From NCBI GenBank assembly GCA_003282175.1, contig QBZX01000005.1:1-64000 (forward strand): 64,000 bases of DNA, written 5' to 3'. Source of the DNA: Pelagibacteraceae bacterium AG-337-G06 (lineage in GTDB: Bacteria > Pseudomonadota > Alphaproteobacteria > Pelagibacterales > AG-422-B15). The first letter of the stretch is position 1. Each line of letters starts with the position of its first letter. A program made the translations under genes and the position numbers. Under the pieces are notes generated by a model. That model saw only the letters and a program-made list of their open reading frames with translations. It had not been told where the DNA came from and did not search any database. Shown piece after piece: positions 5,108 to 58,639 of the stretch.

Positions 5108-5136
5108 TTGACATATATAAGGTAAATTGATTTATT
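5108..5136 (+). promoter_or_regulatory. Candidate sigma-70-type promoter for the SCP2 gene
   Basis: A perfect -35 box TTGACA (5108-5113) is followed after 17 bases by TTTATT (5131-5136), 4 of 6 matches to the -10 consensus. It lies in the intergenic region between divergent genes, about 30 bases before the SCP2 start, which has a GGAG ribosome site at 5157-5160. Confidence 0.5.
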
Positions 5137-5167
5137 GTCATTCTAAATTAATTTATGGAGTATATAT

Positions 5168-5482
5168 ATGGCTGACGTAGCAAGTTTATTGGCTGAATTT
5201 CAAAAAGGAATAGAGGGTAAAGATACAGGCCTTGGAGCAACTGTTAAATTTGATTTTGAAGGTGCTGGATGCATTTTTTTAGATGGAAAATCTAATCCTA
5301 ATACTGTTTCTGATCAAGATCAGGAAGCAGACTGTACGCTTTCAATGTCAATGGAAACATTTGAGCAAATGAGATCAGGTGAAGTTGATGGAACTTCTGC
5401 TTTTATGCAGGGTAAATTAAAAGTATCTGGGGATATGTCTATTGCAATGAAGTTACAATCTGTAATGGATGCTCTCGCTTAA
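5168..5482 (+). CDS. SCP2 sterol-binding domain protein
   Basis: 104 residues, a single SCP2 (sterol carrier protein 2-like) domain, which forms a hydrophobic pocket for lipids or acyl-CoA. The typical run is present: a hydrophobic strand ending GCIFLDG, then D-x-x-A-DCTLSMSMETFEQMRSGEVDG, and GKLKVSGDMSIAMKLQ near the end. There is no signal peptide, so it is cytosolic. Start supported by GGAG 7 bases upstream. The ligand is unknown. It is a single-gene unit with its own candidate promoter and a strong terminator. Confidence 0.85.
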   Translation: MADVASLLAEFQKGIEGKDTGLGATVKFDFEGAGCIFLDGKSNPNTVSDQDQEADCTLSMSMETFEQMRSGEVDGTSAFMQGKLKVSGDMSIAMKLQSVMDALA

Positions 5483-5505
5483 AAGATTTAAAATAGAATT
5501 AAATT

Positions 5506-5540
5506 AAAACCCAGTTATTTATAACTGGGTTTTTTTTTAT
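5506..5540. terminator. Bidirectional rho-independent terminator
   Basis: Perfect 9-base-pair stem CCCAGTTAT (5510-5518) with ATAACTGGG (5521-5529), extended by A4/T4 pairs and followed by a run of T on the plus strand; the flanking A run gives a T tail on the minus strand too. It lies between convergent SCP2 and hisN-like genes and overlaps the hisN-like stop codon at 5515. Confidence 0.9.
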
Positions 5541-6318: not shown

Positions 6319-6371
6319 ATATATTAATAATTAGTGTTGATTTGAATTAACGAACTTCTATCATAACTATA

Positions 6372-41215: not shown

Positions 41216-41488
41216 ATGAACCAGAGAATTTTACTATTCATAGTTATTTTTTTAGGATTTTTAATTATCGTTGGTACAACTGTTGTTATTACAACTGTAA
41301 TTGAAAGATCCAAAAATGTTGATTTTTTCGAAAACACTAATGATACTGAATTTCATAGTACATGTGGAACATCAGGCATCGAAGACGTCATTAAACTTGA
41401 AGATCAAAAAATATTGATCAAATGTTTTGATGGTCCAGTATATATTTACGACTCTAAGAAAAACCAGATTATTACCGAAATTAATTAA
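41216..41488 (+). CDS. DUF6476-like small membrane-anchored protein
   Basis: 90 residues with one N-terminal membrane helix (about 5-27) and a short extracytoplasmic domain that repeats a pattern I-E-D-V-I-K-L-E-D-Q-K-I-L-I-K followed by GPVYIYDSKKNQIITEI. A protein of this shape next to rluD is an alphaproteobacterial trait (DUF6476). Function unknown. The stop overlaps the GMC oxidoreductase stop by four bases. Confidence 0.65.
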   Translation: MNQRILLFIVIFLGFLIIVGTTVVITTVIERSKNVDFFENTNDTEFHSTCGTSGIEDVIKLEDQKILIKCFDGPVYIYDSKKNQIITEIN

Positions 41489-43077
41489 TTATTTACAATT
41501 AAATCAGACGCTTTTTCAGCAATCATTACAGTTGATGCGTTTAAATTACCAGTAATGATATTGGGCATAATTGATGCATCAATGACTCTTAAACTATCTA
41601 TTCCGTATACTTTGAGTTCCTCGTCTACCACTGATCGATCATCCTTTCCCATTTTACACGTACATGATGGGTGGTATGCAGTATCTCCTTTATCTCTTAT
41701 AAAATTATTAAGATCTTCATCATTATTTATATTGCTTCCTGGTGAGATTTCATCTCCTCTATATTCATCGAATTCCTTTTGACTAAATATCTCCCTTGCA
41801 ATTTTTATTCCTTCTCGCATTTCTCTAAGATCATGTTCGGTTTGCATATAATTGAATTGGATGGAAGGTGCATCGTTTGGATTATTTGATTTTAATTTTA
41901 CTGATCCTCTGCTGGTAGGTCGCATCGGTCCTACGTGGGCTTGAAAAGCATGGCAGGTAGAACTCTTTCTTCCATGATCTAAAACTAAAGATGGAAAAAA
42001 ATGAAATTGTATATTTGGATAATCAGACATTTCATTGCTCTTCACAAAGCCACCTGTTTCTAGATTAGAGTGCGCAGCAACACCTGTTTTAAACAAAAAC
42101 CATTCAGCACCTATCAATGCCATTTTAAAAGGGTTCTGAGCACTGTGAAGTGTTACAGGCTTTTTACATTTATATTGAACATAGGTTTCAAGATGATCTT
42201 GTAAGTTTTTACCAACTCCCTCCAAACATTCTACTGGCTCAATATTATGATTTGATAATTCTTTTTCTGGGCCAATTCCAGAAAGCATGAGCAATTGAGG
42301 TGAATTTATAGCCCCAGCAGAAAGAAGGACCTCTTTAGTTGAAAAATACTTTTTATTTTTACCATTCGCTTTGCATTCAACTCCAACAGCTTTTTTATTT
42401 TCAAACAGTATCTTATTTACAGTTACGTTTGTTAATATCTTCAAGTTAGATCTGTGCTTTATTGGATGAAGATACGTAACGCTTGTACTTTGTCTCTTTC
42501 CATTGAAAATAGTTGTATCCATTAAACCAAAACCTTCTTGTTCTTTGCCATTCATATCATTATTTATTTGATACCCAGCTTGTTGCGCAGCATTTAAATA
42601 AACTTGACTAAGAATATTGCCATTTGTGGATCTTGAAAGTTTCAGAGGTCCCGAGTCTCCTCGAAAATTTGCATCCAAACCCTCAACTGACTCAGATTTT
42701 TTAAAATAAGGCAAAATTTTATCGTAAGTCCAATCTGTTAAACCTAACTGTCCCCAGTTATCAAAATCTTTTGCATTACCTCTTACATGAACCATTCCAT
42801 TGTGCGATGAACTTCCTCCCAACATCTTACCTCTGGGGCAGAACATAGTCCTATTATGCATAAATGGTTCTGGCTCAGATTCATAAAGATAATTATATTT
42901 TGGATCGTGCATTGTATAAAGTAGTGCGGCAGGCATTGCAGTTTTCCAAGTATGGTCTGAAGGCCCTGATTCTATTAGCAGGACATTAATAGAGGCATTT
43001 GATGAAAGGCGATTAGCTAGTACACAACCAGCGCTACCAGCTCCAATTATAATATAATCAAAGTTATTTAATTTCAT
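41485..43077 (-). CDS. betA: GMC family oxidoreductase, choline dehydrogenase-like
   Basis: 530 residues of the FAD-dependent glucose-methanol-choline family. FAD-binding GAGSAGCVLANRLS (12-25), GGSSSHNGMVHVRGNAKDFDNW, LSAGAINSPQLLMLSGIGP and the C-terminal catalytic region with YHPSCTCKMG and GNLNASTVMIAEKASDLI. BetA oxidises choline to betaine aldehyde at the membrane. The neighbouring betaine importer and trimethylammonium enzymes support choline as substrate, but the family is broad and other alcohols are possible. Confidence 0.75.
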   Translation of the reverse strand: MKLNNFDYIIIGAGSAGCVLANRLSSNASINVLLIESGPSDHTWKTAMPAALLYTMHDPKYNYLYESEPEPFMHNRTMFCPRGKMLGGSSSHNGMVHVRGNAKDFDNWGQLGLTDWTYDKILPYFKKSESVEGLDANFRGDSGPLKLSRSTNGNILSQVYLNAAQQAGYQINNDMNGKEQEGFGLMDTTIFNGKRQSTSVTYLHPIKHRSNLKILTNVTVNKILFENKKAVGVECKANGKNKKYFSTKEVLLSAGAINSPQLLMLSGIGPEKELSNHNIEPVECLEGVGKNLQDHLETYVQYKCKKPVTLHSAQNPFKMALIGAEWFLFKTGVAAHSNLETGGFVKSNEMSDYPNIQFHFFPSLVLDHGRKSSTCHAFQAHVGPMRPTSRGSVKLKSNNPNDAPSIQFNYMQTEHDLREMREGIKIAREIFSQKEFDEYRGDEISPGSNINNDEDLNNFIRDKGDTAYHPSCTCKMGKDDRSVVDEELKVYGIDSLRVIDASIMPNIITGNLNASTVMIAEKASDLIVNN

Positions 43078-43122
43078 GAAATGATTTTATCAAACATTGT
43101 ATTTATAGTACAACATTAGATA

Positions 43123-44019
43123 ATGTTAAAAAACTTAAATCCAAGCTTGGCAATAGTATTATCTACTCTGCTTTGGGGAACATGGTGGTATCCTCTTCGT
43201 TTGTTAAATGAGTACGCAAGTAATAATGCGATACCTCTAACATTAAGCTTTATGCTTGCTGGTTTTTTTCTTCTAAGTTTTTCACTACGGAACGTACATT
43301 TACTTACTAAAAAAAATATAATTCTTACAATAATTGCAGCGACTGCTGGTGCGGCGGCAATGTGTCTATATAATGAGGGACTGTTACGTGGTAACGTTGC
43401 AAGAATTTTAATATTTTTTTACCTTACAGCTGTTTGGAGCACAATTATTGAGATTGTATTTTTAAGAACCCCTTTAACCATATACAGAGCTTTTTCCATA
43501 GCAGCTGGTTTCACGGGTCTTTTTATCATAACAGGATTGGACAAAGGTAATATTTTGCCAAGTTCTCTTGCTGATATATTTGGCATAGCCTCTGGTTTTT
43601 TGTGGTCTGTTTGTGCAACAGTAATTAGAATTAATAATGAATTAGATGTTAATTTTGGGACTTCAATCTTCATTCTCATTGGTGGATTATTTGTCATCAT
43701 TGCAACTCTTTTGCCAAATGGACAGGTGCTTGCAGGTTTCAATAATGAAATAATATCTAATACCTATATAATAATTTTGATATTTGCTTTTATTTGGTTA
43801 CTTCCTGGATATTGGCTGATCACTTTCGGCCAAGATCAAGTAGACCCAGGTAGAGCTGGAATTTTACTGATGTTTGAAGTTGTTATAGGCATTCTATCTG
43901 CATATCTCTTAGCGAATGAAATTATTACGATGAGAGAATTTATTGGTGCGGTATTTGTTATGAGCGCTCCATTGATTGAAATATACTTTGGAAATAGATC
44001 ATATAAATCAGTAGCTTAG
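43123..44019 (+). CDS. DMT superfamily (EamA-type) transporter
   Basis: 298 residues with about ten hydrophobic helices in two repeated EamA halves; the first begins with LSTLLWGTWWYPLRLL and the second near LADIFGIASGFLWSVCATVIRINNEL. Drug/metabolite transporters usually export small metabolites, sometimes import them. It stands between a divergent choline-dehydrogenase-like gene (45 bases) and proX (104 bases), so a quaternary amine or its breakdown product is the likely cargo by context only. Confidence 0.8.
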   Translation: MLKNLNPSLAIVLSTLLWGTWWYPLRLLNEYASNNAIPLTLSFMLAGFFLLSFSLRNVHLLTKKNIILTIIAATAGAAAMCLYNEGLLRGNVARILIFFYLTAVWSTIIEIVFLRTPLTIYRAFSIAAGFTGLFIITGLDKGNILPSSLADIFGIASGFLWSVCATVIRINNELDVNFGTSIFILIGGLFVIIATLLPNGQVLAGFNNEIISNTYIIILIFAFIWLLPGYWLITFGQDQVDPGRAGILLMFEVVIGILSAYLLANEIITMREFIGAVFVMSAPLIEIYFGNRSYKSVA

Positions 44020-44123
44020 AATTTTCCTATAAACTATTAAAATTTCTCGCTTTTTACCTAGATAGAAGGATGGATATATGTTTCAATTAAAAAATATATA
44101 AAAAAAATAAATGGGAGTTAAGA

Positions 44124-45140
44124 ATGAGTTTATTCTCTAAGAAATCAGTTATTGCAATATTCCTTTTAGGCTTTGCGATGATCTTTACTGTCAGTTGTGA
44201 CAGAAATCAGGAAGTAGCCGATTGCGGTACAATCACTGTGGCTGAGATGAATTGGGCTTCTGCGGAAATGTTTGCGCATGTAGACAAAATGGTTCTTCAA
44301 AACGGTTATGGATGTAATGTCGAGTTAGTGCCAGGCGATACAATGCCAACTGCGACATCAATGATGGAAAAAGGTGAACCAGATGTTGCGCCAGAACTAT
44401 GGATTAATGCTGTTCGTTTAGCATTAGATAATGCTGTAGGAGAAGGTCGTTTGCATTATGCTGCAGAGGTATTGTCTGACACAGGTGAAGAAGGTTGGTG
44501 GATTCCTCAGTACATGGCAGACGCAAATCCAGACATTCAAACAGTTTATGATGTAATTGAACGACCAGAATTATTTCCTCACCCAGAAGGTGGAACTGGA
44601 GCAATCTATACATGTCCATCAGGGTGGAATTGCCAAATAAGTACTGGAAATTTATTTAAAGCTTATGATATGGAAGCTAAAGGCTGGAGACTTGTAGATC
44701 CAGGATCAGGCGGGGCTTTAGCTGGAGCAATTGGAGAAGCTTACAATAAGGAGGAAGGGTGGCTAGGATACTATTGGGCACCTACCGCAGTACTTGGAAA
44801 GTACCCATTGAAAAAACTCAGTTTTGGTGTTGATCACAGCAAAGAAGAATGGGATAACTGCACATCTCAAGATGGATGCGCTGATCCTCAACCAAATGCG
44901 TGGGTAGTTTCTGAAGTTTATACCGTAGTTACAGATAACTTTAAAAATAGTTCAAATCTGGGTATGGAATACATTTCTAAAAGAGCGCTTCCAAATAGCA
45001 CTGTAAATGCCTTATTAGCATGGAAAGATGACAATCAAGCATCTGGTGAAGACACAGCAATATACTTCTTAAAGAATTATACTGAGTGGCATAGCTGGGT
45101 TGATAGTGATGCAAAAGCAAAAATTGAAGCAGCACTGTAA
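44124..45140 (+). CDS. proX: Glycine betaine/proline-type ABC transporter substrate-binding lipoprotein
   Basis: 338 residues of the OpuAC/ProX family. N-terminal signal ends in a lipobox-like TVSC, so it is probably lipid-anchored in the periplasm. Trp residues typical of the aromatic cage that binds quaternary ammonium are abundant (AEMNWASAEM, PELWINAVR, EEGWWIPQY, GYYWAPTA). It binds glycine betaine, carnitine, choline or related compounds; which cannot be decided from the sequence. Start has GGGAG upstream. A strong hairpin follows before proW. Confidence 0.9.
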   Translation: MSLFSKKSVIAIFLLGFAMIFTVSCDRNQEVADCGTITVAEMNWASAEMFAHVDKMVLQNGYGCNVELVPGDTMPTATSMMEKGEPDVAPELWINAVRLALDNAVGEGRLHYAAEVLSDTGEEGWWIPQYMADANPDIQTVYDVIERPELFPHPEGGTGAIYTCPSGWNCQISTGNLFKAYDMEAKGWRLVDPGSGGALAGAIGEAYNKEEGWLGYYWAPTAVLGKYPLKKLSFGVDHSKEEWDNCTSQDGCADPQPNAWVVSEVYTVVTDNFKNSSNLGMEYISKRALPNSTVNALLAWKDDNQASGEDTAIYFLKNYTEWHSWVDSDAKAKIEAAL

Positions 45141-45154
45141 TTAAATAATAATAT

Positions 45155-45187
45155 TGCGGACTATTATGATATAGTCCGCATTATTTT
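45155..45187 (+). terminator. Stem-loop between proX and proW (partial terminator or mRNA stabiliser)
   Basis: Perfect 10-base-pair stem TGCGGACTAT (45155-45164) and ATAGTCCGCA (45171-45180) with a 6-base loop, followed by TTATTTTAT. The distal end is 7 bases before the proW ATG, which has no visible Shine-Dalgarno. Such hairpins after a binding-protein gene usually raise its mRNA over that of the permease. Confidence 0.7.
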
Positions 45188-46084
45188 ATGAATTTCTCAA
45201 ATTTTTTCCTTTCATTTCCAGAAATGAGCAAGGAGGGCCTTCGTCTTTTTAAGAAAACACTAGATGGGGCTTACCGAAATTTTTCCAGAGAGTACGGAGA
45301 TACGATTGAAGCTGTATTTGATCCTGTACTTTACTTTCTTGTATGGTTTGAGAAAATACTACAAAATTCACCATGGCCACTTGTAATCGTTGCTTTTCTT
45401 TTACTGATTTATTACGGTAGCAGAAGTATTTCTTTGACAATTTCATCTTTATTTGCATTTCTACTAATTGGATATTTTGGGATGTGGGATGACACAATGT
45501 CTACTGTTAGCATAATAGGGGTTTGTACGATTATGTCGATAGGATTAGGAATTCCCATCGGCATACTAATGTCTGGGTCCGACAGGGCGCGTGCCGTCGT
45601 CACTCCCATCCTAGACGTGATGCAAACAATGCCAAGTTTTGTATATCTTATTCCTGTTGTGATGCTTTTAGGTATTGGAAAGATTCCTGGATTACTTGCT
45701 GTTATAATCTACGCTATACCACCGATAATTAGGTTAACAGATCTTGGTATTAGAGAAGTTAACAAAGAAGTTTTGGAAGCAGCTGATGCATTTGGAGCTA
45801 ATAGAATGCAAAAATTATTTAGAGTTCAGCTCCCTCTTGCTTTACCAACAATTTTTGCTGGTATAAATCAAACTATTATGATGGCTTTAGCGATGGTCGT
45901 TATTGCATCAATGATTGGAGTGAAGGGATTAGGACAGCCAGTCCTAAAAGCAATTACTAATCAATATTTCACTATGGGCCTTTTAAATGGTCTTGCCATT
46001 GTTGCTTTAGCAATAATCTTTGACAGAGTTTCCCAATCATTTGGCAAAAGAATGCAACAATATAGAGCAGGAACAAATGAGTGA
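45188..46084 (+). CDS. proW: Glycine betaine/proline ABC transporter permease
   Basis: 298 residues with multiple membrane helices and the binding-protein-dependent permease (EAA) loop at EVLEAADAFGANRMQKLFRVQLPLALPTIFAG near 195-226. VMQTMPSFVYLIPVVMLLGIG is characteristic of the ProW/OpuAB branch. It pairs with ProX and ProV to import quaternary amines. Eight bases overlap proV. The initiator ATG at 45188 lies directly after the hairpin; a second in-frame ATG occurs 13 codons later, also without a ribosome site. Confidence 0.92.
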   Translation: MNFSNFFLSFPEMSKEGLRLFKKTLDGAYRNFSREYGDTIEAVFDPVLYFLVWFEKILQNSPWPLVIVAFLLLIYYGSRSISLTISSLFAFLLIGYFGMWDDTMSTVSIIGVCTIMSIGLGIPIGILMSGSDRARAVVTPILDVMQTMPSFVYLIPVVMLLGIGKIPGLLAVIIYAIPPIIRLTDLGIREVNKEVLEAADAFGANRMQKLFRVQLPLALPTIFAGINQTIMMALAMVVIASMIGVKGLGQPVLKAITNQYFTMGLLNGLAIVALAIIFDRVSQSFGKRMQQYRAGTNE

Positions 46085-47096
46085 AGTTAAAATTAAAATA
46101 GAAAATTTATATAAGATATTTGGCTCAAGATCTAAAGAACTTACGCAAAAAGTTAAAGAGGGTGTTAATAAGGAGGAATTGTTATCAAAATATAATCATG
46201 TTCTTGGCTTAGATGATATCTGCCTAGATATAAAAGAGCATTCAATTCAGGTTGTAATGGGGTTATCAGGATCAGGTAAGTCAACATTAATTCGTCATAT
46301 AAATAGGTTAATAGAGCCAACTGAAGGGACAGTTGCTGTTGATGGCGTTGATATAACTCAGCTAAGTAAAGCTGATTTACTAGAGTTTAGAAGAAATAAA
46401 ACGGGTATGGTTTTTCAACGATTTGCTCTCTTTCCACATCAAAATATTTTAGACAATGTTCAGTTTGGATTGAGCATAAAAAATTTAGATAAAAATGACT
46501 CTGAAGATAAAGCGTTATATTGGATAGATAAGGTAGGTCTAAATGGATTTGAGAATAAATTTCCTAATCAACTCTCTGGAGGAATGCAACAAAGAGTGGG
46601 TCTTGCGAGGGCACTAGCAACTGACCCTGATATTCTATTAATGGATGAAGCATTTAGTGCTTTAGACCCATTAATCAGAACTGATATGCAAGATCAATTA
46701 TTAGATTTGCAACAAAATTTAAATAAAACAATTATGTTCATTACTCATGACCTTGATGAAGCTTTAAAATTAGGGGATAGAATAGCAATTTTGAATGGTG
46801 GAAAGTTGGTACAAGATGGACATGCAGAGGAAATACTTCTCAATCCTGCCGATGAATATGTTACCAATTTTGTCAAAGATGTTAACCGTATAAAAGTTTT
46901 AAAAATAAAAACCATTTTGAATAAAGATGGTAAATCAAACGAAACAGGTCCCTCAGTTAAAATTAATGAAAGTATAGAAAATTGCTTGCCTATTATTTTA
47001 GAAAGTAATTCTGATATAAACGTATTAGATGAAGGTAATAATTTTGTTGGTATAGTTTCAAAAGAAAATGTTGCAGCTATTCTAAGAAAGTCTTAA
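46077..47096 (+). CDS. proV: Glycine betaine/proline ABC transporter ATP-binding protein
   Basis: 339 residues from the ATG at 46077, which gives MSEVKIKIENLYKIFG, the usual ProV start; a longer reading from 46020 would run 57 bases further into proW. Walker A GLSGSGKS, Q-loop VFQRFALFPHQ, signature LSGGMQQR, Walker B ILLMDEAFSALDP and switch THDLDE are intact. A C-terminal CBS-like regulatory stretch follows. An insert before Walker A (KELTQKVKEGVNKEELL) is typical of ProV. It energises the ProXW importer. Confidence 0.93.
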   Translation: MSEVKIKIENLYKIFGSRSKELTQKVKEGVNKEELLSKYNHVLGLDDICLDIKEHSIQVVMGLSGSGKSTLIRHINRLIEPTEGTVAVDGVDITQLSKADLLEFRRNKTGMVFQRFALFPHQNILDNVQFGLSIKNLDKNDSEDKALYWIDKVGLNGFENKFPNQLSGGMQQRVGLARALATDPDILLMDEAFSALDPLIRTDMQDQLLDLQQNLNKTIMFITHDLDEALKLGDRIAILNGGKLVQDGHAEEILLNPADEYVTNFVKDVNRIKVLKIKTILNKDGKSNETGPSVKINESIENCLPIILESNSDINVLDEGNNFVGIVSKENVAAILRKS

Positions 47097-48235
47097 GGGT
47101 TAACTTGGTTCAGATAGTTTAATCTTCCAATAATTTCGTCTCGATCTATATAGTATCCTTGTAAATGTCTTTCGCCTGAATTTGCATCGTATTCTTTTCG
47201 ACCGTGAAGTACCCGTCTATTATTAAAACTAAAAATATCCCCAGCCTTAAGTCTGAAATTTATTTCAAATTTAGGATCGTGAAGTAAAGCGATTAGTTTT
47301 CGGTAAGCTTCGTAAAACTTATCCATTTGGTTGGGGTTACAATCCATCACTCCCATATAAGCAACACTAAACCTTATATCGTTAAAATCATTATTATGAT
47401 CTAAAGAAAATAGAGGTTTATGCATTACCCTTATAGCATTTGAAGTATAATCTCTATTTACAAATTTGACAGGCGTCTCTAAAAGAGTTTCAAAATATTC
47501 TGTATAATTTGCTTTCATGTAACTAGCAACTTTGAATCCATCTACTGCAACCGACTCGCCTCCAGAAGCATTGTTGATCAGGCAATGCAAGAATTGATAT
47601 CCTGGTGCTATTTCATAGTATGGAAGATCTAAATGGTTCCTTAATGCAGCTGCGGTATAAGCAGAATTGTTAGGATTAGGAATATCAATAACTTCAAAAG
47701 GTGTTTTAAAAAAGGTTTCTCTATGGTGACTAATATTAGCAATTACATCAAAACCAGATTCCTTATCCGTAGGTGCATTTTTAACAATAGAAATACCTTT
47801 GTAGTGAAGCTGCTCAAGCCACTTTTTAATTCCATCATCTCCACTAATAATTTCTTTATAGTCTATTTGAATGTCTTCAAAATTAGATTCTATACTATGG
47901 TCCCATAGAAAATATGGCGAAATGTATGTTTTTTTACTTTTAAGTGTGTAGCAATTATGTCTGAGCCAATCGCTATCATAGTAGCTTGTATGATCACCTT
48001 CACTCCATTCAATTTCAAGCGCCCCTTTATCATTTATCTTATAAGACTTTGGATGTATATCATCTGTAACCGTTAAAAGGTTGAAAGTTCTCTCTCTTGC
48101 AGTTGGATGAACTTCTGATGGGCAATTATCTCTCAGCCATAAAAAATTAAATTTACTTTGTTCACCATCGCTCCAATCAACTAGTATTGATTTACCATTC
48201 TTTTTTAACGACGATATAGATGGATTATGACTCAT
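47093..48235 (-). CDS. Gamma-butyrobetaine dioxygenase
   Basis: 380 residues, a two-domain Fe(II)/2-oxoglutarate enzyme of the BBOX1/TauD type that hydroxylates gamma-butyrobetaine to L-carnitine. The N-terminal DUF971-like domain has LWLRDNCPSEVHPTARERTF (32-51). The catalytic domain has the iron triad His201-x-Asp203 (RNHLDLPYY) and His344 (VLHGRKEY); Arg356 in ERHLQG should bind 2-oxoglutarate. Its stop overlaps the proV stop by four bases. It heads toward no downstream gene but is the third gene of a minus-strand unit with BKACE and carnitine dehydrogenase. Confidence 0.88.
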   Translation of the reverse strand: MSHNPSISSLKKNGKSILVDWSDGEQSKFNFLWLRDNCPSEVHPTARERTFNLLTVTDDIHPKSYKINDKGALEIEWSEGDHTSYYDSDWLRHNCYTLKSKKTYISPYFLWDHSIESNFEDIQIDYKEIISGDDGIKKWLEQLHYKGISIVKNAPTDKESGFDVIANISHHRETFFKTPFEVIDIPNPNNSAYTAAALRNHLDLPYYEIAPGYQFLHCLINNASGGESVAVDGFKVASYMKANYTEYFETLLETPVKFVNRDYTSNAIRVMHKPLFSLDHNNDFNDIRFSVAYMGVMDCNPNQMDKFYEAYRKLIALLHDPKFEINFRLKAGDIFSFNNRRVLHGRKEYDANSGERHLQGYYIDRDEIIGRLNYLNQVNP

Positions 48236-48238
48236 AAA

Positions 48239-49210
48239 CTATTTAAAATTATTGTATTTCCTACCCCAATTTGGAAACTTATCTTTTTGATTTTTATTTA
48301 AAGTTTTCATAATTTCAATCAAAAATAAATCTCTTTGTTCCTCAAGCTCTTTGATACTAAATTTCCCAGCTTGTTTTTTCGTGCCAGAAATCATTGATTC
48401 TTTCAGTTTACTCGATAATTCAGGCGCTTTCAATTTAGTCCAAGGCAGCTTTAGAGCAGGACCAAACTGCTCTAGCATATGTTTCATTCCCGTTTCTCCA
48501 CCAGCTAAATGAAATGTTAAACATACCCCCATAAAGGCCCATCTTAATCCAGGCCCATACACAATAGCGTCATCAACTTCTTCAGTTGATGCTACGCCAT
48601 CATTTATTATATGTAAGGCCTCACGCCATAAAGCTTCTTGAAGTCTATCAGAAATGTATCCTTCTATCTCTTTTCGAACAACAAGGGGTCGCATTCCAAT
48701 ATGTTCATATATTTTTTTTAATTTTTTTACATTTGTATGACTAGTCTTTTTACCAGCTACAATCTCAACAAGTGGTAACAAGTATACTGGATTAAATGGA
48801 TGTCCAATTAATACTCTTTCAGGAAATTTACATGTAGATTGAACTTTTGATGGTAATAATCCAGAGGAACTGGACGCAATTATAATATTTTTTGGAATTA
48901 CATTATCAATTTTTTTTAGAATATTTTTTTTAATTTTTTCATTTTCAGGTGCGTTTTCTTGAACGAAGGTTGTTTCATGTAAAGCATCATTCAGGTTAGT
49001 AAAAACTTTAAGTTTTTTCAATGAAGCATGTTTATTTAAACCTATCTTTTTAAGACTTTTAAATGCAAAACGAATATTTTTTTTTAATTTCTCAAGTGAG
49101 TCAATATTTGGGTCATATGCTTTAACAATATAGCCTTTAGCAAGAAATCTTACCGCCCATCCAGCACCAATTACACCTGTTCCAATAATCGAAACAATTT
49201 TTTTTTTCAA
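48239..49210 (-). CDS. L-carnitine dehydrogenase
   Basis: 323 residues of the 3-hydroxyacyl-CoA-dehydrogenase fold: NAD-binding [18 protein letters not shown] (10-27), SSSSGLLPS with the catalytic serine region, [16 protein letters not shown] with the catalytic His, and a helical C-terminal domain. Length and the GAGWA variant fit L-carnitine dehydrogenase, which oxidises carnitine to 3-dehydrocarnitine. The neighbours make and use exactly these compounds. 3-hydroxybutyryl-CoA dehydrogenase is the alternative but lacks this context. It overlaps the BKACE gene by four bases. Confidence 0.85.
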
Positions 49211-50091
49211 CGTTTTAACCCAAGATGTATTCTTGCTTCATCAGGACCCATTACATTTGAGCCTAAATTATTAATTATTGTAGCAGCTTTTTCAACAAGT
49301 GATCCATTCGTAGCATAAACGCCTTTTTCTAAATAAAGATTATCCTCAAGTCCAACTCTAACATTGCCTCCTAATAAAACAGCTTGTGCTACCATCGGCA
49401 TTTGATTAATTCCGATTCCAAATGCCCCCCAGTTACTTCCTTTTGGTATCATATCAACCATATTTTTCATTGATCCAGTTGTTGCGGGCGCACCGTAGGG
49501 TATCCCTAAACAAATTTGAAACAATGATGGCTGATCTAGCAAGCCTTCTTCTAACATCTGATTTGCAAACCATAAATGACCTGTATCAAAGACTTCAAGT
49601 TCTGGTTTAACCCCTAATTCTTGAATTCTCTTAGCACCTATTCTTAGTTGTTCAGGGGTTCCAACATAGATCATATTTTCATCACCAAAATTTAGAGTAC
49701 CGCAATCTAAGGAACATATATCAGGTAGAAGTTCTTCAACATGACTCAGCCTTTCAAGTGCATTTACAAAATCTGTATTAGAACCAAAGTTTAATAAATC
49801 ATCTTCTGGACCAATTTCTATATCTCCTCCCATTCCACTTGTGAGATTAATTATCACATTAGTCCCACTATCTTTTATTCGGCTAACTACTTCTTTATAA
49901 AGTTCATTATCTCTGGATCCCTTTCCAGTTTCAGGATTTCGAACATGAATATGGGCTATAGCAGCTCCAGCATTAGCAGCTTCAATAGAAGCGTTTGCTA
50001 TTTCCTCAGGAGTAACAGGAATATTAGGATGCTTGCCAACAGAGTCTCCTGATCCAGTAACTGCACAAGAAATTATAATATTTTTATTCAT
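49207..50091 (-). CDS. Beta-keto acid cleavage enzyme (BKACE), probable 3-dehydrocarnitine cleavage
   Basis: 294 residues of the BKACE (DUF849) family of zinc TIM-barrels that condense a beta-keto acid with acetyl-CoA and split off acetoacetate. Metal-binding [10 protein letters not shown] (about 48-57), [10 protein letters not shown] and the C-terminal [16 protein letters not shown] are family landmarks. Next to L-carnitine dehydrogenase the expected reaction is 3-dehydrocarnitine plus acetyl-CoA to betainyl-CoA plus acetoacetate. First gene of the carnitine unit; divergent from the aldehyde dehydrogenase across 69 bases. Confidence 0.85.
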
Positions 50092-50121
50092 AAGATTATG
50101 AAGTTACAATATTAAAAAGAA

Positions 50122-50150
50122 TTTACAATTTGAATAGTATAGTATGTAAT
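50122..50150 (+). promoter_or_regulatory. Candidate promoter for the aldehyde dehydrogenase operon
   Basis: TTTACA (50122-50127), 17 bases, TGTAAT (50145-50150). Transcription would start near 50157, only about four bases before the ATG at 50161, and the short A-rich leader contains no ribosome site. The mRNA may therefore be leaderless. Confidence 0.4.
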
Positions 50151-50160
50151 AAAAAAAAAA

Positions 50161-51585
50161 ATGGAAAATCTTCAAAAATTTTATATTAACGGTAAATGGA
50201 TAATGCCCAAATCAACTAAAACAATGGCGGTTCTCAACCCTGCAACTGAAGATTTGATAGGTGAGATAATCCTTGGTAATTCTAAAGATGTAGATATTGC
50301 CGTGAGTGCTGCAAAAAATGCATTTAATAGCTTTTCTAAAACTTCAAAGAATGATCGTTTAGAATTACTTAATAAAATTAGGCAGATTTCTGAAAAAAGG
50401 TTTGAAGATCTTGCAGATGCAATGACATCTGAAATGGGAGCTCCTCATAGAATGGCTAGAGATGCGCAGGCAGATGCAGCAATAGGACATTTAGATGGTT
50501 TTATTGATGCGTTAAAGAAGCATGAAGAAAAAATTATTCTTTCTAATACAGATGTACTTTTAAAAGAGCCAATAGGAGTTTGTGGTTTAATTACTCCCTG
50601 GAACTGGCCCATTAATCAAATTACATTGAAAGTACTTCCTGTGATTGCTACAGGATGTACATGTATTTTAAAGCCATCTGAGCATACTCCTTTATCAGCG
50701 ATGGTTTATGCTGAAATTCTTGATGAGGCTGGAGTTCCTGATGGTGTATTTAATTTAGTACATGGAGATGGAGAAGGGGTAGGCGTGTTGATGTCTCGGC
50801 ATCCAGATATAGAAATGATGTCATTTACTGGCTCTAAAAGAGGAGGTAAGTCAGTTACCATTGAATCTGCTGAGACTGTAAAAAAAGTAACATTAGAATT
50901 AGGCGGCAAATCACCTAACATCGTATTTGCGGATTGTGACTTAGAGGAAAAAGTAAAAGCTTCAGTAAATGAATGTATGTTTAATACTGGACAATCTTGT
51001 GATGCTCCTACAAGGTTACTGGTAGAAAAAAAATGCTATGATGAGGTAATTGATATTGCAAAAAAAACTGCTGAAGAAATTAAGGTAGGTGATCCAACAC
51101 TAGATGGTGACCATCTCGGGCCACTCTTTGATAGAATACAATTTGATCGAGTTCAGAATATGATTCAAGTTGGTATTGATGAGGGAGCAAAATTACTTGC
51201 AGGAGGCCTTGGAAAACCTGATGGTCATGAAAAAGGATGGTTTGTAAAGCCAACAATTTTTTCTGATGTAAAGAATAATATGAGAGTTGCTCAAGAAGAA
51301 ATATTTGGTCCAGTGCTAGTGATAATTCCTTTTGATGACGAGGATGAGGCAATCAGAATAGCAAATGATACTCCTTATGGTCTTGCTGCCTATCTGCAAA
51401 CGGGAGATAAAGAAAGAGCTGAACGTGTCTCAAGGCAATTAAGAGCAGGCGGTGTTCATGTTAATGGCGGTGGTTATAATTATGGTTCACCTTTTGGGGG
51501 ATATAAAGAATCTGGTAATGGCCGAGAAGGTGGAGAAATGGGGCTAGAAGATTACCTAGAAACTAAAGCACTTCACATTGCTTAA
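50161..51585 (+). CDS. Aldehyde dehydrogenase, probable (trimethylamino)aldehyde type
   Basis: 474 residues. ITPWNWPINQ, KPSEHTPLSA, FTGSKRGGKS, LELGGKSPNIVF with the general-base Glu, the nucleophilic Cys in FNTGQSCDAPTRLLV and EEIFGPVLVIIPF are all present. The family includes betaine aldehyde dehydrogenase and 4-trimethylaminobutyraldehyde dehydrogenase. Location supports either betaine aldehyde (after the choline dehydrogenase) or the aldehyde that yields gamma-butyrobetaine. The sequence alone does not decide; the broad family (including 3-succinoylsemialdehyde-type members) should be kept in mind. Confidence 0.85.
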   Translation: MENLQKFYINGKWIMPKSTKTMAVLNPATEDLIGEIILGNSKDVDIAVSAAKNAFNSFSKTSKNDRLELLNKIRQISEKRFEDLADAMTSEMGAPHRMARDAQADAAIGHLDGFIDALKKHEEKIILSNTDVLLKEPIGVCGLITPWNWPINQITLKVLPVIATGCTCILKPSEHTPLSAMVYAEILDEAGVPDGVFNLVHGDGEGVGVLMSRHPDIEMMSFTGSKRGGKSVTIESAETVKKVTLELGGKSPNIVFADCDLEEKVKASVNECMFNTGQSCDAPTRLLVEKKCYDEVIDIAKKTAEEIKVGDPTLDGDHLGPLFDRIQFDRVQNMIQVGIDEGAKLLAGGLGKPDGHEKGWFVKPTIFSDVKNNMRVAQEEIFGPVLVIIPFDDEDEAIRIANDTPYGLAAYLQTGDKERAERVSRQLRAGGVHVNGGGYNYGSPFGGYKESGNGREGGEMGLEDYLETKALHIA

Positions 51586-51606
51586 GAAATAATAAAATTT
51601 TATGAT

Positions 51607-53553
51607 ATGCCAAGGTTGCTTTGGAGCCCATCTAAGGAAAGAGTAAAAAAAACAAACCTATATAATTATTTTATTTTTTTAGAAGAAAAAAACAAAATTC
51701 AATTAAGTTTTGATTATAGTAAAATCTGGTCCTGGAGCATTAGTCATCCTGCTGAATTTTGGTTAAGCTTAATAGATTATTTAGGCATACAGTACAAAGG
51801 AAGCTCTAGCCCAGTTATTGAAAAGGATAAATTTATATACAACCAAGAATTTTTTAAAAATATTAAAGTTAATTATGCCGAAAATATTTTATCTAATCTT
51901 AACTCATGCCCTATTACCTTTATCAATGAACTTGGTTTCAAGAAAAGTTATTATAAGGAAGATTTAGTATCAAAAACGTCAATATTAGCTAACTATTTTA
52001 GATCTATAGGGGTTAAAAAAGGAGATCGGATTGTGGCAGTCGCGGTAAACAGTGCTGAGACACTAATTGCATTTTTAGCAGTGAATTCTATTGGGGCGAT
52101 TTGGTCATCTTGCTCGCCAGATTTTGGCGAGGCAGCTATTTTAGATCGTTTTAATCAAATAAAACCAAAAGTATTATTATATTCTAAAATTTATTTATAT
52201 GGTGGAAAAAAATTTGATATTGAAAAGAAAATAAAAAATGTAATTAATAATATCAAAACACTCAAACACACTATTTGTATTAACTATCCAGACAAGAAAC
52301 TGGATAAAGGAATAGATGAAATAAGTTTAAATTCAATTTTTCAAAAAGAAATTTATCAAGAAAAAATTATTTTTGAAGAAAACTCATTTAATGACCCAAT
52401 GTATATTCTTTATTCTAGTGGAACAACCGGTAAACCTAAATGCATAGTTCATAATACTGGTGGACCACTTTTACAACATACAAAGGAGCAACAGCTTCAT
52501 TGTGATCTAAAAATAGGTGACAAATTATTTTATTATACAACCTGTGGATGGATGATGTGGAATTGGCTTATTTCAGGTTTAGCGTCAGGAGTTTCATTAG
52601 TGCTTTATGACGGATCCCCATTTTATCCAGATAAAGAAACCCTTTTTAAAATTGCTGAAGAAGAAGAAATAACGTGCTTTGGAACAAGTGCAAAATTTAT
52701 TGATGCTTTAAGAAATGATAAAGTAAATATTCTAGAAAAATATAATTTAGGTAAACTTGAATCATTGTTAAGCACAGGGTCACCACTTATAAGTGAGAGT
52801 TTTGAGTATGTGTACGAATTTATAAAAAAAGATATACATCTGGCGTCCATTAGTGGAGGGACAGACATTGTTTCTTGCTTTGTTGGCGGCAATCCAATGT
52901 TGCCAGTTTACTCTGGTGAAATACAAAGTATGTGTCTTGGGGTAGATGTGGATGTCTTTGATGAAAAAGGTCAGGCTACGCTTCAAAAAGGTGAGCTGGT
53001 ATGTAAATCACCGCTTCCATCTATGCCGATTGGATTTTGGGATGACTTAAATAAAGAGAAATATATTAAATCATATTTTTCAAAATTTAAGAATGTATGG
53101 ACACAAGGTGATTACGCTAAAATATCTCAAAATAATGGAATAGTCATTTATGGACGGTCAGACTCAACATTAAATCCTGGTGGAATTAGAATTGGAACTG
53201 CTGAAATATATAGGTCTGTCGAACAAATAGATGAAATTGTTGAATCCATTGTAGTTGGTCAGTCTTGGAACAATGACACAAGAATTATTTTATTTGTGAA
53301 GCTTCAAAAGGATATTGAGCTTGATCAAGTTATTATTGATAAAATTAAATATAATATTAGATCTTCTAATTCTATAAGACATGTGCCTGCAAAAATTATT
53401 AAAGTAAGTGATATACCTAGAACAAGAAGTGGCAAAATAGCAGAAATTACTGTGAGAGATATTATTAATGGCATGAATATAAAGAATTTAGAGGCCTTAG
53501 CTAATCCTGCTTGTTTATCGGAATATGAAAATATTGAAGAATTAAAAAATTAG
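51607..53553 (+). CDS. Acetoacetyl-CoA synthetase
   Basis: 648 residues of the acyl-adenylate ligase family. N-terminal ACAS_N segment (IWSWSISHPAEFWLSLIDY), the ATP loop YSSGTTGKPKCIVH, TCGWMMWNWL, SGGTDIVSCFVGG, the adenylation GDYAKI and the C-terminal SRSGK-like RTRSGKIAE lysine motif. Length and the motif set SGGTDIVSCF identify acetoacetyl-CoA synthetase rather than acetyl-CoA synthetase. It would activate the acetoacetate freed by BKACE, feeding it back as two acetyl-CoA. It starts 21 bases after the aldehyde dehydrogenase. Confidence 0.9.
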   Translation: MPRLLWSPSKERVKKTNLYNYFIFLEEKNKIQLSFDYSKIWSWSISHPAEFWLSLIDYLGIQYKGSSSPVIEKDKFIYNQEFFKNIKVNYAENILSNLNSCPITFINELGFKKSYYKEDLVSKTSILANYFRSIGVKKGDRIVAVAVNSAETLIAFLAVNSIGAIWSSCSPDFGEAAILDRFNQIKPKVLLYSKIYLYGGKKFDIEKKIKNVINNIKTLKHTICINYPDKKLDKGIDEISLNSIFQKEIYQEKIIFEENSFNDPMYILYSSGTTGKPKCIVHNTGGPLLQHTKEQQLHCDLKIGDKLFYYTTCGWMMWNWLISGLASGVSLVLYDGSPFYPDKETLFKIAEEEEITCFGTSAKFIDALRNDKVNILEKYNLGKLESLLSTGSPLISESFEYVYEFIKKDIHLASISGGTDIVSCFVGGNPMLPVYSGEIQSMCLGVDVDVFDEKGQATLQKGELVCKSPLPSMPIGFWDDLNKEKYIKSYFSKFKNVWTQGDYAKISQNNGIVIYGRSDSTLNPGGIRIGTAEIYRSVEQIDEIVESIVVGQSWNNDTRIILFVKLQKDIELDQVIIDKIKYNIRSSNSIRHVPAKIIKVSDIPRTRSGKIAEITVRDIINGMNIKNLEALANPACLSEYENIEELKN

Positions 53554-53567
53554 TTTTATATTTTTTT

Positions 53568-54659
53568 ATGGATTTTAATTATGATTCAAAAGAAATAAGG
53601 TTTTTTATTGGCGATGAGCAATATAAGCTTCATCCTTTATGGATGAGAGAACGGTCATTAGAAGAAGGTGCAGTCGATCAAAATTCACTACAACGACTAT
53701 ATGACCCAGAGAAAATCATTGAAAATTTAGAAATCAAAGAAGTAAATAAGTTAGACGAAGATAAACTATTAATTAAATTCTCAGATAATCATATAGCTAA
53801 GTATTGCATAAAAAACTTAATTAAAGAAATAAAGAGAGCTAAAGGACTTCCTGATAAAGTTTTTTGGAATAAAGACAGCATATCACTTAGAAAGTTTAAA
53901 TTTGATTATAATACAAATGAAAATAAACAAATTTATGAGATATTAGAATATTACCATAGATATGGATTTGCAATTGTAAGCAAACTCAAACCTGAAGATG
54001 GTGAGATTATAAATTTTGCAAAAAAAATTGGATATATAAGAGAAACTAATTTTGGAAAATTATTCAACGTTAAATCTCAAAAACAACCAAACGATTTAGC
54101 ATATACATCCATTGAATTAGAGTCTCATACTGATAATCCATATCGAAAACCAGTACCTTCTATTCAATTTCTTTTTTGTATTCATAATAGTTGCCAAGGA
54201 GGCGACTCAACAATTGTTGATGGGTTTAAGGTTGCAGAAGACTTAAAAAATGAAAATCCAAATGCGTTTAATACTCTTACGAATACTCTTATCAATTTTA
54301 AATTTAAAGACAAAGATGCTATATTGGAAAAAACAGGTAAGATCATCAAGTTAAGTGAGCGAGGAGAAATAAAGCAAATAAAGTATAGCAACAGATTAGA
54401 TTTTGTTTTTTATCAAGACCCTAAAAAACTTGATGAATTTTATGCGTCGAAAAGAGTGATGCACAAAATGATAAATTCTTCTAAATATATATTTAAGTTT
54501 CGCTTAGAACCAGGAGATTTAATTATTATGAATAATTATCGAACACTTCATGGTAGAACAAGTTATAATACAACTGAAGGCAATAGATGGCTGCAGGGAT
54601 TATATATAGACCATGATTCTGCAGAAAGTAAGTTTAAATTATTGTCAGAGGAAATATAA
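53568..54659 (+). CDS. tmpA: TmpA-like 2-oxoglutarate dioxygenase (2-trimethylaminoethylphosphonate hydroxylase candidate)
   Basis: 363 residues with the same two-domain plan as gamma-butyrobetaine dioxygenase: N-terminal domain with LHPLWMRERS (21-30), catalytic domain with His187-x-Asp189 (ESHTDNPYRKP), distal His328 (RTLHGRTSY) and Arg340. It is a divergent paralogue of the gene at 47093: the NC-x4-HPT-x-RERTF block is replaced by a sequence ending LQRLYDPE. Its immediate follower is an HD-domain protein. That pairing defines TmpA/TmpB, where TmpA hydroxylates 2-trimethylaminoethylphosphonate. A second butyrobetaine hydroxylase is the alternative. Confidence 0.7.
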   Translation: MDFNYDSKEIRFFIGDEQYKLHPLWMRERSLEEGAVDQNSLQRLYDPEKIIENLEIKEVNKLDEDKLLIKFSDNHIAKYCIKNLIKEIKRAKGLPDKVFWNKDSISLRKFKFDYNTNENKQIYEILEYYHRYGFAIVSKLKPEDGEIINFAKKIGYIRETNFGKLFNVKSQKQPNDLAYTSIELESHTDNPYRKPVPSIQFLFCIHNSCQGGDSTIVDGFKVAEDLKNENPNAFNTLTNTLINFKFKDKDAILEKTGKIIKLSERGEIKQIKYSNRLDFVFYQDPKKLDEFYASKRVMHKMINSSKYIFKFRLEPGDLIIMNNYRTLHGRTSYNTTEGNRWLQGLYIDHDSAESKFKLLSEEI

Positions 54660-55211
54660 ATGGAAAAAGTAAAATTTACTCAGATGAAAGATGGCACAAA
54701 AGAAGATTATGATCTTTTAAGTAAGTATGAAGAAAAGTTTTCAAAAGATCTTCCTGATAGAATATTAGACGCTTTGAGAAATTTAGATAGTTCAGTTGAC
54801 GGTTATCAAGTAACAAGGTTAGAGCATTCACTTCAATCAGCAACTAGAGCTGAAAAAGATGGCGCAGATGAAGAAATGGTAGTGGCAACTCTTGTACACG
54901 ATATTGGAGATAATCTTGCCCCATATAATCATAGTCAACTTGTTGCCTCAGTTTTAAGGCCCTATGTTTCTGAAAAAGTATATTGGATTATGCTTCATCA
55001 TGGGATTTTTCAAGAATATTACTATGCTCATCACATAGGGAGAGATCGTAATGCTAGAGAAAAATTTAAAGATCATCCTTACTATCAAGATGCAGTGGAT
55101 TTTTGTGAAAAGTGGGATCAAAAGTCATTTGATCCAGATTATGAATCTTATTCTCTTGAATATTTTGAACCAAAAGTAAGGAAGCTTTTCTCTAAGGAGC
55201 CAAATTTTTAA
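54660..55211 (+). CDS. tmpB: TmpB-like HD-domain oxygenase candidate
   Basis: 183 residues, one HD domain. Likely metal ligands are His56 (LEHSLQSATRAE), His80-Asp81 (LVHDIGDNL), His91, His114 or His113 (MLHHGIF) and Asp153 (KWDQKSF). HSLQ-x-A-x-x-A-E and the Trp-Asp at the end recall the PhnZ/TmpB mixed-valent diiron oxygenases rather than ordinary phosphohydrolases. TmpB cleaves the hydroxylated phosphonate to glycine betaine and phosphate. It abuts tmpA with no gap. I cannot place PhnZ's substrate-contacting Tyr/Glu pair with certainty, so phosphohydrolase activity is not excluded. Confidence 0.65.
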   Translation: MEKVKFTQMKDGTKEDYDLLSKYEEKFSKDLPDRILDALRNLDSSVDGYQVTRLEHSLQSATRAEKDGADEEMVVATLVHDIGDNLAPYNHSQLVASVLRPYVSEKVYWIMLHHGIFQEYYYAHHIGRDRNAREKFKDHPYYQDAVDFCEKWDQKSFDPDYESYSLEYFEPKVRKLFSKEPNF

Positions 55212-57998: not shown

Positions 57999-58637
57999 TT
58001 AATCAAGCAACAAATTTTTTTTTAAATTACTTTCAATTGATTTTTTTGAAATAGAACCTTTTCTTAAGAGGTTTATTTTGTTTTTATTCACTTCAACCAG
58101 AGTTGATTCTGCAAAGCTCATTCTGTAGTGACTGCTTATCGCGTGCGTAACATCATCATTATGAAGTAGACTTAGATGATTGATATTATTACTATTTTTT
58201 TCTTGATGAATATTTGCACTGGTAGTTGCGAGTGGCTTATTAACGACTTTAAGTAAGTTCATAACATCTTTATTTTTTGGAATGCGAATGCCTATTTTTG
58301 AAAGTCTTTTATCACCGTTATAGATATTTCTATTTTTTTTTCTAAGTATAAGCGTAAGGGGTCCAGGCCAGTAATGTGTTGCTAAGAACTCCTCAATATC
58401 ATTGAAATATGCATATTTTTTTGCTTCTTTTATGGACTTTACAAATAAAATAAGTGGATAGGTTCTTGGTCTTTTTTTAATTTTGAAAATATTTTCAACC
58501 CCTTTCTCGTTAGTTGCATCTGCTGCAATACCATAAACAGTATCTGTTGGTATAATTATTGTTTTACCATTCAGTAGACTTCTAGCAGCTAATTTAATAG
58601 AGTTTATATTGGCTTTAATTACTTTTTTTGAATTCAT
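57999..58637 (-). CDS. tsaC: L-threonylcarbamoyladenylate synthase
   Basis: 212 residues of the YrdC/Sua5 domain: NGKTIIIPTDTVYGIAADATNEKGV (23-47), FKIKKRPRTYPLILFV, HYWPGPLTLILRKK, and TSANIHQEKN match. It makes threonylcarbamoyl-AMP from threonine, bicarbonate and ATP for the t6A37 tRNA modification. The short form (no Sua5 domain) resembles TsaC. Its start codon is 2 bases from that of the divergent histone-deacetylase-family gene. Confidence 0.93.
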   Translation of the reverse strand: MNSKKVIKANINSIKLAARSLLNGKTIIIPTDTVYGIAADATNEKGVENIFKIKKRPRTYPLILFVKSIKEAKKYAYFNDIEEFLATHYWPGPLTLILRKKNRNIYNGDKRLSKIGIRIPKNKDVMNLLKVVNKPLATTSANIHQEKNSNNINHLSLLHNDDVTHAISSHYRMSFAESTLVEVNKNKINLLRKGSISKKSIESNLKKNLLLD

Positions 58638-58639
58638 CT

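Follow-up and report, generated by a model that had tools for sequence, protein, structure and literature searches.

Which reaction is catalysed by a TauD-family hydroxylase and an HD-domain protein whose genes lie side by side among genes for the use of methylated ammonium compounds? The question is raised by a stretch of 64,000 nucleotides from the Pelagibacteraceae bacterium AG-337-G06 (contig QBZX01000005.1, positions 1 to 64,000; here called the window), in which positions 41485-55211 carry an importer, enzymes of carnitine breakdown and, as the last two plus-strand genes, this TauD-HD pair. A first-pass annotation made from the sequence had read the region as a trimethylammonium hub, in which choline, carnitine and a phosphonate, the last handled by a TmpA/TmpB-like pair, all converge on glycine betaine. 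The source genome measures 1.27 Mb and is 93% complete; the named genomes nearest to it come from uncultured Pelagibacteraceae, and NCBI assigns one of these, AG-422-B15, to Candidatus Pelagibacterales. We conclude that the region is probably an island for quaternary-ammonium catabolism in a SAR11-type bacterium, with a carnitine arm and a TauD-HD pair distinct from TmpAB, and that this pair is the part of the region deserving a second look.

Organisation of the island and its carnitine arm

All gene classes named by the first-pass annotation were found within 41485-55211 as intact open reading frames (ORFs), each with the expected Pfam family (the HD model just below its cut-off), which confirms the concentration of genes that it had described. 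The island consists of an importer block (DMT transporter, binding protein, permease and ATPase), a minus-strand operon for BKACE, an L-carnitine dehydrogenase-like protein (CDH) and a gamma-butyrobetaine dioxygenase-like TauD enzyme (GBBH), and a plus-strand operon for an aldehyde dehydrogenase (ALDH), an acetoacetyl-CoA synthetase (AACS), the TauD partner (the tmpA gene) and the HD-domain protein, the two operons diverging from an A+T-rich spacer of 69 bp (50092..50160). BKACE and CDH overlap by 4 nt, and the gaps amount to 3 nt between CDH and GBBH, 21 nt between ALDH and AACS, 14 nt between AACS and tmpA and 0 nt between tmpA and the HD gene. Owing to this tight spacing and to a gene order that is repeated in relatives, the layout is not a matter of chance, a conclusion drawn from spacing and order and not from a formal chance calculation for the gathering of these gene classes. 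Counts of promoters and terminators over the region did not rise above those of shuffled sequence.

The route from carnitine to betainyl-CoA is established chemistry, and the carnitine arm can be compared with it enzyme by enzyme. GBBH (47093..48235, minus strand; Pfam TauD and GBBH-like_N) has TIGR02409 as its best model and retains the Fe triad and N190/N191; CDH (48239..49210, minus strand) has NF005471 as the best of 21 models matched; BKACE (49207..50091, minus strand; Pfam BKACE, 319.1 bits), the sole copy found in the genome, is firm at the family level, albeit with no substrate model; and AACS (51607..53553, plus strand) is firm, exceeding the cut-offs of both NF002937 (849.6 against 639) and TIGR01217 (754.0 against 520.9). 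Going by family membership, GBBH would convert gamma-butyrobetaine to carnitine and CDH would convert carnitine to 3-dehydrocarnitine, from which BKACE, with acetyl-CoA, would form betainyl-CoA and acetoacetate, the latter being recovered by AACS. Several observations weigh against this assignment: GBBH remains below the TIGR02409 cut-off (307.6 against 414.75) and has Ser at the position of BBOX1 Asn292, CDH falls just short of NF005471 (374.9 against 414), and no betainyl-CoA thioesterase was found among the island ORFs scanned by profiles. CDH also has no fused thioesterase domain, as the 495-aa model NF005716 was matched over positions 6-316 only, and the two 4HBT_2 proteins that score above cut-off elsewhere in the genome are possibly unrelated to betainyl-CoA. 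The carnitine-to-betaine reading nevertheless fits at the family level, and the earlier proposal that GBBH, CDH, BKACE and AACS would converge on glycine betaine is supported to that extent. In Pseudomonas carnitine is converted by way of 3-dehydrocarnitine to betainyl-CoA (PMC12482172), and that pathway (CDH, BKACE, DhcAB) shares carnitine dehydrogenase and BKACE with the window, whereas the window has no thioesterase beside or fused to CDH and does have AACS.

The importer and its substrate

The importer had been described as a betaine-type proXWV system, and this description holds in part. A substrate-binding protein (SBP), a single permease and an ATPase make up an ABC importer of the OpuA class, and the ProV-type ATPase (46020..47096, plus strand) exceeds the TIGR01186 cut-off (355.1 against 326.6); the ProW/ChoW-type permease (45188..46084, plus strand; Pfam BPD_transp_1), in contrast, stays below the cut-offs of ChoW (259.2) and ProW (259.0), and the SBP (44124..45140, plus strand; Pfam OpuAC) lies nearer to DmpX than to ProX, reaching only 23-24 bits on the ProX/ChoX NCBIfam models. 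The ATPase ORF as listed opens at TTG, an in-frame ATG near 46077 being the likelier start.

The sole solved structure matched by the SBP is 7yle (phmmer 5.2e-67; 38% identity), that of DmpX, which binds dimethylsulfoniopropionate (DMSP). The DmpXWV system (PMC10030565) has the same three-gene make-up, and 7 of the 8 pocket residues of DmpX are kept in the SBP (W35, T64, W84, E113, W152, Y200 and W202, four of them Trp), among them the Tyr200 whose replacement by Ala or Phe abolished DMSP binding in RnDmpX (PMC10030565). These similarities, to which a DmdA-like GcvT gene on contig C2 of the same genome may be added (236.6 bits, cut-off 410), would allow the importer to serve DMSP and not nitrogen betaines, so that the block would mix sulfonium with ammonium compounds and would be no trimethylammonium hub. 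We consider this possible yet unlikely, since the identity to DmpX is low, the position of Ala153 is Asn in the SBP and in seven close relatives, nearly all of the 13 OpuAC proteins compared possess the Trp/Tyr cage, their aromatic pocket positions being nearly always conserved, and the remaining enzymes of the island fit nitrogen compounds. Glu113, as in DmpX, occurs among these 13 proteins only in the SBP and the same seven relatives. In the quaternary-ammonium reading that we prefer, the importer would take up at least one methylated onium compound, its possible substrates being DMSP, betaines or both.

The importer (44124-47096) shows an identity pattern towards the stretches L032-L062 of related genomes that is unlike that of its neighbours, with the SBP at 71-96%; the SBP is 72% and GBBH 94% identical in L035, and the SBP is 96% identical over half its length and GBBH 86% in L041. 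As importer identities deviate from those of neighbouring genes, recombination of the importer among relatives is suggested. A perfect hairpin with a 10-bp stem (45155-45180), followed by T-rich sequence, lies between the SBP and permease genes and may determine how much binding protein is made relative to permease, although shuffled sequence contains such hairpins at least as often. The EamA/DMT transporter (43123..44019, plus strand; Pfam EamA) precedes the SBP gene.

Sequence and predicted structure of the TauD-HD pair

The HD-domain protein (54660..55211, plus strand) scores 20.8 bits on the Pfam HD model (cut-off 22), 39.5 on TmpB (cut-off 300) and 43.1 on Phn-HD (cut-off 214.6), and its profile matches to PhnZ and TmpB span mainly some 40 residues around the first ligands. 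When its AlphaFold model (pLDDT 95.3) was searched with Foldseek, the ten best matches were PhnZ and TmpB chains and the next two were chains of MIOX (E 0.06-0.15; best 0.063), all ahead of any hydrolase; MIOX was not among the sequence-profile matches at 0.01. No PADLOC match that would indicate a defence role was obtained for the protein. In a joint alignment of 44 HD-family rows with 8 TmpB above cut-off and 10 PhnZ-like rows (L173 and L174, which contain in-frame stops, were omitted from the 20 TmpB/PhnZ-like loci fetched), the six diiron ligands (H..HD..H..H..D) are conserved in all 44 family rows. The YxxE loop, on the other hand, is present in none of them, the Tyr being replaced by V, L or F and the Glu by Tyr in 44/44, as compared to Tyr and Glu in 8/8 TmpB and Tyr in 10/10 and Glu in 9/10 PhnZ-like rows. 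The Lys of HVxxK, found in 18/18 controls, is Gln in every family row, and the QGG-ending loop of all 18 control rows is absent from the six family rows inspected; both the Lys and the loop are presumably involved in phosphonate binding.

The TauD partner (53568..54659, plus strand) is TmpA-like, scoring 339.1 on the TmpA model NF049936, 293.1 on GBBH and, lowest of the three, 184.6 on trimethyllysine dioxygenase. A tree of 54 rows placed 21 HD partners, including the window TauD, together with one unlinked copy in a clade with support 100/100, while 11 TmpA rows (6npb, eight beside TmpB above cut-off and two beside TmpB-like proteins below it) formed a separate 100/100 clade; the window GBBH fell outside both. 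A further nine HD partners, from Gemmatimonadota and a Spirochaetaceae genome, belong to a third TauD branch on the GBBH side, although paired with the same HD family, and its grouping with human BBOX1 could be an artefact of long branches. The Fe and 2-oxoglutarate positions are invariant in the TauD partners. At the equivalents of N191 and N292, two presumed substrate residues of BBOX1, TmpA has N/N in 11/11, the clade of the window TauD has D/S in 22/22, and the third branch has Asn in 8/9 and 9/9.

Taken with the co-occurrence described below, the conserved residues and the predicted fold support the view that the last two plus-strand genes encode a hydroxylase and HD oxygenase pair which would be separate from TmpA/TmpB and widespread. 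TmpA/TmpB of Leisingera caerulea likewise comprise adjacent TauD and HD genes and share the diiron ligands and the fold, whereas the window pair is set apart by the missing YxxE and loop, the Lys to Gln replacement, the separate TauD clade and a score far below the TmpB cut-off. PhnZ, the closest match of the HD protein in both PDB fold and sequence, differs in the same three features, and the TauD partner in the window is of the GBBH/TmpA type, unlike that of PhnY*/PhnZ. PhnZ and TmpB contain YxxE, which is missing from MIOX, an HD diiron oxygenase able to cleave C-C bonds (PMC8177086) and the weaker fold match to the window protein; as MIOX also does without YxxE, the missing loop alone does not exclude an oxygenase. 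A literature search, with subscription papers and preprints lying outside it, listed no published account of such a TauD-HD pair, and for HD diiron oxygenases it listed two reviews and two SAMHD1 papers.

Distribution and genomic context of the pair

Occurrence was scored at cut-offs of 1e-20 (HD), 1e-80 (TauD) and 1e-50 (BKACE). The HD gene is present in 185 of 247 genomes of the order (109/149 good ones) and the TauD profile in 180, or 176 after four genomes (G020, G026, G037 and G050; best TauD E 1e-91 to 1e-95) were counted as having no partner, since their matches look like GBBH. Both genes occur in 167 genomes, HD only in 18, TauD only in 9 and neither in 53 (Fisher p ~7e-29); outside the window's own family the corresponding figures are 124, 18, 9 and 43 (p ~6e-20). 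Outside the family, HD is found in 65 of 67 genomes with BKACE, and 50 of 194 genomes have neither; within it, 36 of 53 have both, 7 HD only, 3 BKACE only and 7 neither.

Neighbourhoods were examined for the best 80 of 271 confirmed HD loci, 41 of which (L105-L145) lie outside the family. A TauD gene is adjacent in 27 of these 41, and in at least 10 (L106, L111, L112, L116, L119, L121, L135, L139, L141 and L142) the stretch contains a BCCT, OpuAC or DmdA-like gene, a lower bound as neighbour proteins were picked by eye and by clustering before profile scans. BCCT transporters occur in L111, L112, L121 and L142 and OpuAC proteins in L116, L119, L135, L139 and L141, while a DmdA-like GcvT gene resembling the C2 copy lies near the pair in L106, L142 and, by clustering, L121, among Spirochaetaceae and Gemmatimonadota. 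In Marinomonas (L116 and L119) the order tauD-HD-GBBH is found beside an OpuA importer and CDH-like and BKACE genes, as seen by tblastn in both loci and by profiles in L116 and, for the SBP, in L119. No phosphonate genes were noticed among those neighbours of HD loci that were inspected, a part of the full set. Two further recurrences were seen: a gene of PF10017, the EgtD-like histidine methyltransferase family, downstream of HD in SAR11 loci (directly in L141:9565-10476 and at ~1.6 kb in L135:11140-12060), and a 3-hydroxyisobutyrate-dehydrogenase-family gene with an ALDH gene near the pair in L131, L139 and L140, from three lineages.

Against the preferred reading it has to be set that only 5 of the 10 genera of the order yielded an HD gene, that the Fisher tests ignore relatedness as well as missing contigs, and that there is no background rate against which the transporter-neighbour count can be set. 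An adjacent TauD is missing in 14 of the 41 outside loci (eight Chloroflexota, one alphaproteobacterium and five Pelagibacteraceae, of which some lie on short contigs), the score of the window TauD is below the TmpA cut-off of 400, and in single-contig genomes of another family HD and TauD are ~68 kb (G259), ~71 kb (G296) and ~556 kb (G292) apart. These distances, together with the 77 of 142 HD genomes outside the family that carry no BKACE at 1e-50, indicate that no fixed link joins the pair to the carnitine arm, and a strict dependence on that arm is rejected.

Candidate reactions of the pair

By analogy with TmpAB, the TauD enzyme would add a hydroxyl group to a quaternary ammonium compound, and the HD-domain protein, as a diiron oxygenase, would then break the bond beside the hydroxylated carbon to yield a carboxylate, in this case a betaine. 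As features of the phosphonate enzymes are lost and the genes are repeatedly placed with betaine transporters and carnitine genes, the onium substrate is probably other than a phosphonate; gamma-butyrobetaine-like, trimethyllysine-like and beta-alanine-betaine-like compounds are all allowed. We tentatively propose that the pair may represent a new class of two-step oxidative scission, which would cleave a C-C and not a C-P bond and free a betaine from a quaternary ammonium compound, which is present in about three quarters of the sampled SAR11-order genomes and in several other marine phyla, which has been assembled with two TauD branches, and which ocean surveys may partly be recording as phosphonate degradation.

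A more specific alternative, that the pair hydroxylates trimethyllysine or a similar amino-acid betaine and then cleaves a C-C bond to release gamma-butyrobetaine (with glyoxylate and ammonia) for GBBH, CDH and BKACE, appears improbable. The pair does adjoin these three genes in two lineages, the family of the window and Marinomonas, MIOX shows that HD oxygenases are able to cleave C-C bonds (PMC8177086), the Asp found in 22/22 where Asn is otherwise the rule might accommodate an amino group, and the PF10017 gene lies near HD in two loci; the trimethyllysine dioxygenase model, however, gives the lowest score of the three matched by the TauD partner, and in many genomes the pair is present without BKACE.

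The phosphonate arm of the first-pass annotation, in which the pair yields glycine betaine, was not upheld. A true TmpAB with a divergent HD enzyme, which would hydroxylate 2-trimethylaminoethylphosphonate and split its C-P bond to give glycine betaine and phosphate, is very unlikely: the TauD partner does match TmpA best in NCBIfam and PDB, the HD protein matches PhnZ and TmpB best in fold, and the genes adjoin each other like those of TmpAB loci, yet YxxE and Lys are gone in 44/44 rows and the loop in the six rows inspected, the TauD lies outside the TmpA clade with both Asn positions altered, and the TmpB cut-off is missed by a wide interval even though TmpB above cut-off exists in 8 of 240 genomes of the class (some match at 1e-8 in 52/240, none in the window genome). 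In addition, no match to the phosphonate-binding protein PF12974 was found in the window genome, as compared to 12 of 14 control genomes with a match (10 above cut-off). That the HD protein is an ordinary HD phosphohydrolase with an incidental TauD neighbourhood, as the outside loci with no adjacent TauD might suggest, is likewise very unlikely given twelve best fold matches to oxygenase chains (PhnZ, TmpB and MIOX), the complete six-ligand set in 44/44, the pairing with two TauD branches and the co-occurrence with TauD where the genes are unlinked.

SAR11-type bacteria rank with the most numerous cells of the ocean, and given this abundance and the wide occurrence of the pair, 185 (HD) and 176 (TauD) of 247 genomes of the order with no assignable reaction amount to a gap in the map of marine carbon and nitrogen. 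If the pair does make a betaine from an unrecognised onium compound, a new dissolved substrate would be named, and if it is sometimes counted as PhnZ or TmpB, estimates of marine phosphonate use would need revision. Published phnZ abundances already differ widely (PMC10574752); Pelagibacterales account for 45% of marine phnZ sequences in a set filtered by conserved residues, which weighs against miscounting (PMC9381506). The pair can be tested now, as it is carried by cultured Marinomonas and Alteromonas, the loci L112 (Marinomonas communis) and L117 (an Alteromonas) being examples.

Conservation of the island and relation to published islands

To assess conservation, the window proteins were mapped onto HD-gene surroundings taken from 34 of the family's 52 other genomes. 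The full run of ten genes between and including SBP and HD was detected in 23 of the 34 stretches, and the left flank (rpoH, rluD, betA and DMT) is present in the 13 that reach it, 12 others having an extra block within reach instead. Separate placement of the genes in close homologues, which the first-pass annotation had regarded as counting against the island, was encountered in part: in g3 (three genomes fetched) AACS-tmpA-HD is apart from BKACE-CDH-GBBH, by ~18 kb in G004, and in G007 AACS and ALDH (by eye also an iron alcohol dehydrogenase) adjoin BKACE-CDH-GBBH with no HD gene. In g2 no ALDH lies between BKACE and AACS (L049; L048 is a short stretch). Across the family, with its many incomplete genomes, 43 of 53 contain the HD gene at full strength and 46 at E 0.001, three of the latter having only weak matches to another HD protein, and 39 contain BKACE. 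Several genomes of the window's own genus (for example G029:C11:7968-8438) encode a second HD protein of 200 aa, ~31% identical to that of the window and possibly a true PhnZ.

A glycine-betaine island was described in 2025 for Arctic SAR11 of subclade Ia.1, where it was present in half of 16 Arctic genomes and in 0 of 18 other single-contig SAR11 genomes, and was read as horizontally acquired (PMC12421898). It shares with the window an OpuA-type ABC transporter, choline dehydrogenase, ALDH, carnitine dehydrogenase, BBOX (two genes there), BKACE and a DMT transporter, and adds a class II aldolase, a thioesterase, HADH and others, an HD protein and AACS not being named in the available part of that account (PMC12421898). 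Since a similar core was already described there, the core of the island is not new; the addition made here is its presence throughout another family of the order, where it is a shared feature, with AACS, the TauD-HD pair and, in some genomes, a demethylation block.

Choline arm and betaine demethylation

The choline arm to betaine is uncertain: betA-like and ALDH genes are present as the first-pass annotation had stated, but the assignment rests on general GMC and ALDH matches. The choline dehydrogenase-like GMC flavoenzyme (41485..43077, minus strand; Pfam GMC_oxred_N/C) exceeds the choline dehydrogenase subfamily cut-off (NF002550, 770.6 against 605) and falls below the betA equivalog TIGR01810 (699.6 against 732.1). 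The ALDH (50161..51585, plus strand; Pfam Aldedh) is non-specific, reaching 447.4 on HpaE (cut-off 638.35) and 431.9 on betaine aldehyde dehydrogenase (cut-off 668.6), the latter shortfall weighing against a choline arm. With both the betA and the betaine aldehyde dehydrogenase equivalog cut-offs missed, the subfamily model is the only one reached. Of the dedicated quaternary-amine island proposed earlier there thus remains a concentrated island with a carnitine arm in a genome of 1.27 Mb; its phosphonate arm is not supported, and its choline arm and the substrate of its importer are uncertain.

Glycine betaine would then be demethylated by products of genes elsewhere in the genome, namely a homocysteine methyltransferase-family enzyme, an FAD-GcvT protein and sarcosine oxidase. 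Such genes had been suggested as a check on the earlier reading, and candidates were found at the family level. Contig C2 encodes a second OpuAC importer, a homocysteine methyltransferase-family protein (Pfam S-methyl_trans, yet only 94.1 against a cut-off of 338 on the betaine-homocysteine methyltransferase (BHMT) model), an 811-aa FAD-GcvT protein, for which dimethylglycine dehydrogenase is our own label with no such model behind it, a sarcosine oxidase (SoxA 1409.1 and SoxB 673, both above cut-off) and the DmdA-like GcvT protein. BHMT has been proposed as the SAR11 betaine demethylase (PMC12478193).

In 12 of the 34 stretches from relatives (L041 at 2491-7424, L038, L039, L042-L046 and L059-L062) a three-gene block, 99-100% identical across genomes, lies inside the island between ATPase and GBBH. 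Its first gene encodes a protein of 802 aa combining DAO, FAO_M and GCV_T domains, a layout that we label dimethylglycine-dehydrogenase-like, the second a homocysteine S-methyltransferase-family protein of 346 aa that reaches 97.8 bits against a BHMT cut-off of 338, and the third a 456-aa protein with no family call. Because of the position of the block these stretches end at or before the SBP; three of the 12 belong to g3 and six are short.

In the window genome (G000), contig C2:26197-58922 (L155 and L156) carries these C2 genes in a large one-carbon cluster which also contains genes resembling formate-tetrahydrofolate ligase (by eye) and methylenetetrahydrofolate reductase, its DmdA-like GcvT protein being 447 aa long. 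In the window itself, a histone-deacetylase-family protein is encoded at 58628-59569, ~3 kb past the island.

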